From NCBI GenBank assembly GCA_016793095.1, contig JAEUJQ010000035.1:1-64000 (forward strand): 64,000 nt of DNA, written 5' to 3'. Positions within the stretch are counted from its first letter, which is position 1; each line of letters begins with the position of its first letter. The translations under genes were made by a program, and so were the position numbers. Source of the stretch: Myxococcaceae bacterium. Lineage in GTDB: Bacteria > Myxococcota > Myxococcia > Myxococcales > Myxococcaceae. Shown one piece after another: positions 46,761-50,192 of this stretch. The notes below the pieces were generated by a model. The model did not search any database, was not told the origin of the DNA, and worked only from the letters and a program-made list of their open reading frames with translations.

Positions 46761-49700
46761 GTGCGCTCGATTCCGCTTCTGGTGCTCGCGCTCCTCTTCG
46801 CGGGCTGTCCACAAGAGAAGCCACCCTGCAACGTCACGACGTGCCCCGACGGGTGCTGCTCATCTGGCGGCGAGTGTCTGCCGGGCAACGACAAGGCCGC
46901 GTGCGGCACGGGAGGCCTCTTCTGCCGCGCATGTGACGAGGCCGACACCTGCGCCGACAAGCGGTGCGATCTCGTACGGCCCGACGCGGGCGCCTGTCCC
47001 ACCGGCTTCCACCGCTGCGGAGACACGTGCGCGTCGGACAACGACCTCGCGACCTGCGGCAGGCGTTGCAGCCCCTGTCCCACCACGGCGAACGGCATGG
47101 CGACCTGCTCCGCGGGCGTGTGCGGCCTGGCGTGTCGAGCCGGCTTCCACCAGTGCGGCTCGGTCTGCGCCGATGACACCGGCGTCAACACCTGCGGCGA
47201 TCGCTGTGGGCCCTGCGCGGCCCCACCGAACTCCCGGCCTGCCTGCGTCAACCGCGCCTGCGACTTCGAGTGCAACAACGGCTTCCACCGCTGCGGCGAT
47301 CAGTGCGTCGCTGACGACGCGGCGGCCTCCTGTGGCACGCGGTGTACGGCCTGCCCCGCGCCCGCCAACGCGGTCGCCGTCTGCACCGGGATGCAGGAGT
47401 GCGACTTCGCCTGCACCGCCGGCTTCCACCGCTGCGGGACTGTGTGCGTGGCCGACACGGCGCCCGAGTCGTGCGGCAACCGCTGCGCGCCCTGCCCCGG
47501 CACGGCCAACGGCGTGGCGGCCTGCACCATGGGCCAGTGCGACGTCACCTGTGCGATGGGCTTCAACAAGTGCAGCGGCGCGTGCGTGTCCAACACGTCG
47601 GTGACGGCGTGCGGGCCCACCTGCGCGACGTGCGTGCCCCCGGACGGCGGCTCGCCGTTGTGTCGGAACGACGCGTGCGCGTACACCTGCGCCACGGGCT
47701 TCAACCCGTGCAACGGCGAGTGCGCGAGCGCAACCGACGTGCTGGCCTGCGGCGCCTCGTGCACGCGCTGCCCGCCTGGCGTGCCCGGCTCCCTTCCCAC
47801 CTGTGACGGAACGACGTGCGGCACCACCTGTGCGCCCGGCAACACCCGCTGCGGCGGCCCCACGGGCAGCTGCGTCGGTGACGGAGTCGCCGCTGCCTGC
47901 GGAGCCGCGTGCAACCCCTGCGCTCCCGGCGGCGCGCTCGAGCGGGCGACCTGTACAACGGGCGCCTGCGCGACGGCCTGCATCGACACCTGCAACGCGG
48001 CCTGCGTCGATCGTCAGCGCGACCCGGCGAACTGCGGCGCGTGTGGGGCGAGCTGCGCTGGCGGCGCGTGCGTCAACGGTCAGTGCCGCCCGGCGTGCGC
48101 GAACGGCGTGGTGTTCTCGGGCATCGCCGAGACGCTGCCGCACGCGTTCACCACCGGCCTCGACCCGCGCTTCTGGGCCGTGGACGTCACCGGCGACGGC
48201 CTCGTCGAGCTGCTGGCGACCGCAGGCACGGGCCGCTTCGCCTTCACCAACCACGGCAACGCGCGCTTCGCAGCCCCCACCGTCGCCGACGCCGGCGCCT
48301 CGCTGCTGCCGCTGGGCCAGGCCGACTTCACCCTCGATGGGCGCGCTGACCTCCTGGCCGGCGACGGCCGCTCGTTGTGGCTGGTGCCGCAGACGCCCGC
48401 CGGCTTCCTGGCGCCGCTGCAGCTCTTCACCAACAACCAGAGCGGCCTGGCGATCGCGGCGGACTTCACGGGCGACGGGCGGGCCGATCTGCTCCGCGTG
48501 CCGCAGCTGGGGAACCTGAACGCCGACTTCTGGGTGAACCAGTCTGCCGACGGCGGAGCGCCCTTCTCGCAGACCCGCAACGCCGCGCCCAACCTGCAGC
48601 TCGCCGATCTCGCGCGCGCGGGCGATCTGAACGGCGACGGCCGGGCCGATCTCGTCACCTCGGCGGCGGGGCAGCTCCGGGTCTTCCTCACTGCGGGCGC
48701 GACGGGCTTCAACCCCGGCCCGGCGGCGCCGCAACAGAACGGCGTCATCGGCCTGGCGGTGGGAGAGCTCACCCGTGACGCGCACCGCGACGTCGCCATT
48801 CTCACGCCGGCCGCGGTGTCTGTGCTGGCCGGTGATGGCAGCGGCGCGCTCACGGCGCCGGTGGTGGCGGCGAACGCGGCTTCCCCGTTGGCGTCAGTGG
48901 AGGTCGCGGACCTCGACGGCGACGGCTTCGGCGACCTCGCCCTCGGCACGGGGCGCGGCCTCGAGGTGCTGTGGTCGACCGGCGCGGGCACGTTCTCGGC
49001 GCTCGACGTCTACCCGGTGGACGGCTTCACCCCCTCGTCGCCGGCGAGCGGCCTCCAGCTCATCGACTTCACGGGCGACGGCCGTCTCGATGTGGTGCTC
49101 TCGAGCGGCGTGGTGAAGCCGGTCCTGGTGCGAAACGGCGCGAGCGGGCGTGGCTTCGAGCGCACGCTGCGCACACTGGTGTCGGGCGGCGCGGAGTTCC
49201 TGCTGACGGCGCCCCTCGACGGGGACGCCCGCGACGACGTGCTGGTGAGCCGCCGGGCGACGGCCATCTCGATGGCGCCGGTGATGACGCAGACGCGGGT
49301 GCTGCGCTCGCTGGCCGACGGTGGCTTCGCCATCGGCCCCGAAGACACGCTGACCCGACCCGACGCGGTGGCCGACTTCGATCAGGACTCGAACCCGGAC
49401 GTCTTGCGCCTCGAGTGCCCGGCCCCGCCCCTTCCGGACGGAGGCTTCAATCCAGCCCCGGCGCGGTGCTTCGCGAGGGTGGACTTCGGCGCCGCGCTCC
49501 GCTTCGGCGCGACGGGCGTGGCGCTGGCGCTCGAGGAGACGGCCGGCGCGGAGGTCGTTCTGCGCACGGCTGACTTCGACGCCGACGGTCGGCCCGACGT
49601 GCTCGCGCGCACGCGCGCCGGGTTCCTGCTGTTCCGCAACCTGGGCGCACGGCAGTTCTCAGCGGCCGTGGTGACACCATTCCTGCCGGCGGTGGTGGAC

Positions 49701-50192
49701 CTCGCTGTGGCCGACGTCGATCGCGACGGCCGGCCGGACCTGGTGGCGCTGTCGGGCGCGAGCGCGCCACGGGCGGTGTACGTGCTGCACGCGCGAGGCC
49801 CCGCTTTCTCCCTGGCGCCGCGCCTCGGCTCCTTCGACTTCGACACGTCGCTCGCGGCGGGCTTCGTGACGAACGACGCCTTCCCGGATCTCGCGGGCAG
49901 CTCGGGCGTGCTGATGACGGGCAACGGTGCCTCCGTGTTCGCGCGTGGCACCGACTGGCGACCCGCTCCGGTGGCGGCGAACGCGTCGTTCCTCTTCGAC
50001 TCTGACGGGGACGGGCGCGCAGAGGTGGTGAGCCGCTCGTTCGGCAGCACGGTGTTCGCCAACCCCGACGTGCCACCGCGTGGCTTCGCTGGGCGCGTCG
50101 AGCGCTTCGCCGACGTCACGGGAGACGGGATTCCCGACTGGGTGCAGGGCTCGGCGGTTGAGGTCGTCGTCGGCGTCGGCCGCTGCCGCTGA
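46761..50192 (+). CDS. Giant Cys-rich plus FG-GAP repeat lipoprotein
   Basis: 1143 residues. GTG 46761 gives an ideal lipoprotein signal (RSIPLLVLALLFAGC); the open frame runs on to 46650 but adds only linker-like residues. Residues ~60-450 hold about eight cysteine-dense repeats of ~45 residues (core GFHRCGDTCASDNDLATCG), with Cys in register and many likely disulfides. Residues ~455-1143 form FG-GAP/VCBS-type propeller repeats (VDVTGDGLVELLATAGTG, LNGDGRADLVTSAAGQL), which often bind calcium and mediate adhesion. Probably a surface adhesin or scaffold. Confidence 0.85.
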   Translation: MRSIPLLVLALLFAGCPQEKPPCNVTTCPDGCCSSGGECLPGNDKAACGTGGLFCRACDEADTCADKRCDLVRPDAGACPTGFHRCGDTCASDNDLATCGRRCSPCPTTANGMATCSAGVCGLACRAGFHQCGSVCADDTGVNTCGDRCGPCAAPPNSRPACVNRACDFECNNGFHRCGDQCVADDAAASCGTRCTACPAPANAVAVCTGMQECDFACTAGFHRCGTVCVADTAPESCGNRCAPCPGTANGVAACTMGQCDVTCAMGFNKCSGACVSNTSVTACGPTCATCVPPDGGSPLCRNDACAYTCATGFNPCNGECASATDVLACGASCTRCPPGVPGSLPTCDGTTCGTTCAPGNTRCGGPTGSCVGDGVAAACGAACNPCAPGGALERATCTTGACATACIDTCNAACVDRQRDPANCGACGASCAGGACVNGQCRPACANGVVFSGIAETLPHAFTTGLDPRFWAVDVTGDGLVELLATAGTGRFAFTNHGNARFAAPTVADAGASLLPLGQADFTLDGRADLLAGDGRSLWLVPQTPAGFLAPLQLFTNNQSGLAIAADFTGDGRADLLRVPQLGNLNADFWVNQSADGGAPFSQTRNAAPNLQLADLARAGDLNGDGRADLVTSAAGQLRVFLTAGATGFNPGPAAPQQNGVIGLAVGELTRDAHRDVAILTPAAVSVLAGDGSGALTAPVVAANAASPLASVEVADLDGDGFGDLALGTGRGLEVLWSTGAGTFSALDVYPVDGFTPSSPASGLQLIDFTGDGRLDVVLSSGVVKPVLVRNGASGRGFERTLRTLVSGGAEFLLTAPLDGDARDDVLVSRRATAISMAPVMTQTRVLRSLADGGFAIGPEDTLTRPDAVADFDQDSNPDVLRLECPAPPLPDGGFNPAPARCFARVDFGAALRFGATGVALALEETAGAEVVLRTADFDADGRPDVLARTRAGFLLFRNLGARQFSAAVVTPFLPAVVDLAVADVDRDGRPDLVALSGASAPRAVYVLHARGPAFSLAPRLGSFDFDTSLAAGFVTNDAFPDLAGSSGVLMTGNGASVFARGTDWRPAPVAANASFLFDSDGDGRAEVVSRSFGSTVFANPDVPPRGFAGRVERFADVTGDGIPDWVQGSAVEVVVGVGRCR

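Follow-up and report, generated by a model that had tools for sequence, protein, structure and literature searches.

Few receptors are known through which predatory, social myxobacteria recognise other cells. According to the available text of PMC3325183 and PMC11980579, TraA of Myxococcus has a PA14 head, a C-terminal MYXO-CTERM anchor and a separately named repeat, TIGR04201. Myxobacterial surface export is discussed for MYXO-CTERM proteins (available text of PMC11980579), and applies to the protein described here by analogy only. In AAL2, a propeller lectin, the sugar pocket contains a Trp-His pair, W112/H117 (available text of PMC4483166). Here, we analysed a window of 64,000 nucleotides from a Myxococcaceae bacterium (contig JAEUJQ010000035.1, positions 1 to 64,000), in which one gene with a GTG start (46761..50192; this and all features below on the + strand) encodes a protein of 1143 residues that joins a cysteine-rich stalk to an FG-GAP propeller head. 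A literature search, outside of which most subscription papers fell, returned no title or abstract opening describing this architecture. On balance, we favour an outer-membrane lipoprotein, probably surface-exposed, that would act as a receptor or adhesin-like binder, with a calcium-stabilised double propeller clasped onto a disulfide-braced mast.

Architecture and conservation of the fusion

From its N-terminus, the protein consists of a lipobox, a module with ten cysteines, seven repeats with eight cysteines each, a degenerate Stig1-like eighth unit and an FG-GAP/VCBS head of about 697 residues (447-1143). Five full-length orthologues with 67-73% identity were found in the same genus, and the VRSxP beginning set by the start codon recurs in several of them. 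The signal peptide and lipobox LLFAG/C (46761..46808) were assigned by eye from the translation. The proposed acylated residue, Cys16, is invariant in the protein and its five orthologues. A lipobox-like Cys also precedes the N-terminal module in all 18 complete FG-GAP-headed members of the family, including this one. The ten-cysteine module (residues 23-69; 46827..46967) is MXAN_6577-like and lies inside the best stretch (residues 9-146) of a match to NF041328.

A first-pass annotation, made from the sequence alone, had described a lipoprotein joining cysteine repeats to FG-GAP repeats. We confirmed this observation, including its coordinates, and the conserved lipobox-like Cys agrees with the lipid anchor it had proposed. 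It had counted about eight 45-residue repeats. The dense cysteine repeats are indeed present, but they resolve into seven eight-cysteine units of 46-50 residues, an irregular Stig1-like eighth and the separate ten-cysteine module. The interpretation as a whole, a stiff disulfide-braced stalk with an adhesive or calcium-binding head, is partly supported. Four points described below go beyond it: the predicted clasp between stalk and head, the count of 14 blades in the head model, the link between the repeat and Stig1-like units, and the occurrence of this repeat type with other kinds of head.

Stalk and head are encoded by one gene in five of the six other genomes of the genus. In the sixth (G002; L069 and L030), the gene is split over two contig ends: one frame (L069, assigned to this record by its frame length) stays open to the end of a contig of 11377 bases, and the other part starts at contig base 2. 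This is the sole broken case, and an origin of the halves as two separate genes, which the first-pass annotation had named as its possible undoing, was not found in close relatives. Other genera of the family also have stalk-head fusions, which are more distant. A search with the whole protein gave matches at E ≤ 0.001 in 46 of 60 genomes (its own included), many of these matches spanning head residues only. At E ≤ 1e-30, a stalk profile (A1), for which only eight candidates per genome were scored, had matches in 23 of 195 genomes from the phylum, again including its own, with the longest matches in the family of the window. Searching contigs with the protein alone returned no relative; an alignment query then gave 28 loci, all from metagenome-assembled genomes, of which two were labelled Deltaproteobacteria and one Betaproteobacteria.

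A predicted clasp between stalk and head

The stalks of the 18 complete FG-GAP-headed members contain 75, 91 or 107 cysteines, an odd number in every case, counted as far as the Cys ahead of blade 1, a boundary set by pattern. Their heads contain one, three or seven cysteines in 17 members and two in one (L070), so that 17 of the 18 mature proteins have an even total. Cys-Arg forms the C-terminal end of every member, and the heads of L071, L074 and L077 have no Cys other than the terminal one. Because six of the 18 are the protein itself and its orthologues, these counts represent fewer than 18 independent cases. Left out were sequences cut at the 3' end (L069 and L073), the 5' end (L075/L057, L082 and L060) or both (L058), as well as L084, which has another FG-GAP type and does not end in Cys-Arg. 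L025 and L066, L026 and L067, and L029 and L068 are one record each, and none was counted twice in the 18 or in the head alignment (A2). The Cys-Arg end is also absent from five members with other heads. As a separate observation, the three stalk counts lie 16 apart, as though repeats had been added two at a time.

The odd number of stalk cysteines, the Cys-Arg end and the three heads without another Cys together predict a disulfide between the end of the stalk and the C-terminus. Its stalk side would be Cys446 (48096..48098), which is most simply the spare stalk Cys, as it occupies the position where the next repeat would start. Its head side would be Cys1142 in the C-terminal pair Cys1142-Arg1143 (50184..50189). 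All 16 rows of A2 keep both Cys446 and the C-terminal pair unchanged. Parity alone cannot separate pairing within a chain from pairing between chains, and the same two cysteines might link the protein into a covalent dimer or polymer. We regard this as quite improbable, since an extra strand at the N-terminal side of the head and an incomplete last blade suggest closure within one chain, an argument from secondary structure only, whose sequence test failed (see below).

A stalk of eight-cysteine repeats

The seven repeats (residues 79-406; 46995..47978) begin at residues 79, 125, 171, 218, 264, 310 and 357 and are 46, 46, 47, 46, 46, 47 and 50 residues long. Their typical spacing is C-x6-C-x3-C-x8-C-x3-C-x2-C-x9-C-x4-C-x3. 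Allowing x9-10 and x4-5, this pattern occurs six times, against a mean of 0.0002 and a maximum of one in 10000 shuffles of residues 74-449. All 79 cysteines are invariant across the protein and its five orthologues, whereas, counting every residue, 34 of 57, 190 of 376 and 355 of 694 are invariant in the three mature regions, the last being the head. This invariance, together with a locally confident model that weakly resembles EGF rods, supports the disulfide-rich stalk of the first-pass annotation.

The repeats are followed by a terminal Stig1-like module with nine cysteines, one of them spare (residues 407-446; 47979..48098). On this module, the Pfam family Stig1 (PF04885) scored 19.7 bits over residues 403-446, under its cut-off of 24.1, and Stig1 was not among the Pfam matches of the whole protein at E ≤ 1. 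On the protein as a whole, NF041328 (MXAN_6577-like) scored 54 bits, under its curated cut-off of 100, and this model was matched by all 11 stalks of a stalk alignment (A3) at E ≤ 0.01. In a single hhalign comparison, with seven and eight chosen rows, the stalk repeat matched the Stig1-like repeats of an L024 protein from the same genome with a probability of 91.6 (E-value of 8.3e-7). Aligned by hand, the spacing x6-x3-x8-x3-x2-x9-x4-x3 corresponds to x6-x3-x9-x2-x3-x5-x4-x3 in the first L024 repeat, while hhalign put gaps elsewhere. By sequence comparison, the two repeats thus look related. The L024 protein itself (L024:1727-6001, contig G000:C53, minus strand) is an open frame of 1425 residues in which 25 stretches match Stig1; it also has a 1026-bit match to NF041328 and no propeller among its matches.

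The best of five structure models of the stalk had a mean predicted local distance difference test score (pLDDT) of 81.3 (range 64.4-81.3) and a predicted template modelling score (pTM) of 0.40. Fold comparison gave the EGF rods of NELL and Notch as best likenesses, with Z at most 4.8; as this likeness is weak, we claim no fold for the stalk. A repeat profile had no match among PDB sequences at E ≤ 10. A sub-threshold Pfam match of the repeats to AWS was set aside.

A predicted 14-bladed FG-GAP/VCBS head

Pfam FG-GAP_3 (PF13517) matched the protein in eight stretches with 143.7 bits (cut-off 26.9), and FG-GAP (PF01839) matched with 70.3 bits (cut-off 22.1). The head contains 11 Asp-rich loops matching D-x-[DNT]-x-D-[GSA]-x-x-[DE], compared to a mean of 0.04 and a maximum of two in 10000 shuffles, and five of them have the strict form Dx[DN]xDG. 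Many of the loop Asp residues are invariant in all 16 rows of A2, even though identity between this head and the 12 distant ones is only 25-29%. Modelled from A2, the head reached a mean pLDDT of 81.7 (70.0-81.7 over five models) and a pTM of 0.78, with the DxDxDG-type loops between strands A and B. We read its strand list as 14 blades, 13 of them four-stranded and the last three-stranded with its third strand split in two, preceded by an extra strand ahead of blade 1.

In the model, the 14 blades can be read as two seven-bladed propellers, blades 1-7 (residues 468-809; 48162..49187) and 8-14 (residues 810-1143; 49188..50189). The seven-bladed fold is supported for the first only, as fold comparison barely covered the second. 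The first propeller (residues 51-370 of the modelled piece) matched AAL2 (4tqm) with Z 25.6 and a root-mean-square deviation of 3.0 over 311 aligned residues, and integrin alphaIIb (9e8a) with Z 23.4 and a deviation of 3.4 over 316. Overall, Z was about 25 for PVL/AAL2 lectins and about 22-23 for integrin alpha. A profile of the head alignment matched AAL2/PVL lectins, a secreted esterase, CRTAC1, Tc-toxin B subunits, Photorhabdus lectins and integrin alpha in the PDB, which is consistent, at the sequence level, with the VCBS superfamily as presented in the available text of PMC8023676. The propeller head of the first-pass annotation is supported, and its Asp-rich loops are conserved. Cys886 and Cys903 (49416..49469) are the only head cysteines besides the terminal one; they are invariant in the protein and its five orthologues and may form a disulfide in a blade 9 loop. 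Sub-threshold matches to the Pfam families TcdB_toxin_midN, PliI, Attacin_C and RGL11_C and to the NCBIfam families XAC2610 and PA5033 were set aside.

With PVL/AAL2 as the top fold matches and among the top profile matches, the head might be a lectin for N-acetylglucosamine (GlcNAc) or another sugar. However, the W-x4-H spacing of the AAL2 pocket pair was found in none of the 16 heads. Its absence makes a PVL-type GlcNAc site unlikely, although a site for another sugar may exist; overall, we consider the lectin reading unlikely.

Different heads on one repeat type

Repeats of the same type are joined to a Kelch head in L022 of the same genome, to RCC1 heads in L059:1864-3864 (with few repeats) and L091 of same-genus genomes, and to another FG-GAP type in L084. 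Ig-like domains (L089) and laminin-G domains (L093) also accompany cysteine repeats, and Pfam had no family for the C-terminal parts of the repeat proteins L023 and L083. By sequence, the protein thus belongs to a myxobacterial family with different propeller heads on one kind of rod. Since the same repeat type carries varied heads, the two halves look like evolutionarily mobile modules, although in the lineage of the window their fusion is stable.

Several further members stood out. Another protein with the same repeats (L059:8188-10611, minus strand) has a possible MYXO-CTERM end, although its NCBIfam match scored only 23.6 bits where the cut-off is 500. A scavenger-receptor (SRCR) domain appears inserted in the FG-GAP heads of L021 (G000:C85), L075, L076, L078 and L079. 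It was matched by PF00530 in the isolated L076 piece (E-value of 2.2e-22) and read by eye in the other four, and was not among the matches in full-length scans of two L021 proteins at E ≤ 0.1. In L021:4261-13989, two FG-GAP-headed members adjoin on the same strand.

Neighbour genes were named by eye from their translations. The gene lies together with carB in five same-genus genomes, and the contig of the sixth stops short. A 208-residue upstream gene is present in four of the six same-genus genomes, the exceptions being those with L062/L066 and L069.

Proposed function

After export, acylation at Cys16 would anchor the protein in the outer membrane. The ten-cysteine module and the seven repeats would fold into a disulfide-braced mast that raises the head off the membrane, where calcium sites of the Dx[DN]xDG type in the A-B loops presumably give the two VCBS/FG-GAP propellers rigidity. 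The strand just past Cys446 could complete the last blade, which lacks a fourth strand in the model, and a Cys446-Cys1142 disulfide would pin the blade closed and hold the head on its mast. In this view, the rod would be a reusable mount, with Kelch or RCC1 heads in other members.

Alternatively, the protein could be a structural or envelope lipoprotein that faces the periplasm and has no outside ligand. The lipobox was the only sorting signal considered, and in relatives the gene neighbours carB, no partner being evident. We find this rather unlikely, as a stalk of hundreds of residues and the variety of propeller heads on one repeat type are, indirectly, better suited to outward display; the possible MYXO-CTERM-like end of another repeat protein is a weak and equally indirect pointer in the same direction.

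Several results weigh against the surface-displayed, clasped binder that we favour. The stalk pTM means that the overall shape of the stalk is not fixed by the model, although a low value would be expected for a long rod as well as for a poorly fixed one. One member, L070, has an odd total of cysteines, and L084 combines the same repeats with an FG-GAP head of another type that lacks the Cys-Arg end. The strand after Cys446 failed a sequence test as the missing strand of blade 14, with a mean gain of 2.5 bits compared to 2.9 (standard deviation 0.57) for shuffles and 4.9 (standard deviation 1.3) for random head pieces. Finally, none of the neighbours tested for conservation was a partner hinting at function.

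More speculatively, some Myxococcaceae may possess a display system in which a standard disulfide mast, lengthened by whole repeats, carries exchangeable propeller heads from at least three families, FG-GAP, Kelch and RCC1, with the FG-GAP version locked by the C-terminal Cys-Arg clasp. Such a system could provide a set of receptors that recognise prey, kin or matrix. A lipid-anchored mast family with different heads provides defined candidates for myxobacterial cell recognition. As a prediction, the terminal Cys-Arg clasp is simple to test, and it could give the family its name in annotation.

Comparison with known systems

The protein shares predicted lipid anchoring with TraA (PMC3325183 and PMC11980579, as far as their available text goes) but differs from it in head and anchor and apparently in the type of repeat. 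No PA14 family matched it in Pfam at E ≤ 1, and TIGR04201 was not among its NCBIfam matches, the presence of that model in the searched library being unconfirmed. Its N-terminal module and repeat scaffold appear related to MXAN_6577-like proteins (NF041328) and Stig1 (PF04885). It differs from these in its mid-unit spacing (x8-x3-x2-x9 instead of about x9-x2-x3-x5), in scoring below both cut-offs and in carrying a propeller head. With the VCBS/FG-GAP propellers of PVL/AAL2, integrin alpha and TcB, it has in common PF13517, the DxDxDG motif in the A-B loop and the seven-bladed first propeller (available text of PMC8023676), the likeness to integrin alpha being one of propeller fold only. Unlike these, its head lacks the AAL2 sugar-pocket pair and combines 14 blades in a row with a predicted terminal disulfide clasp.
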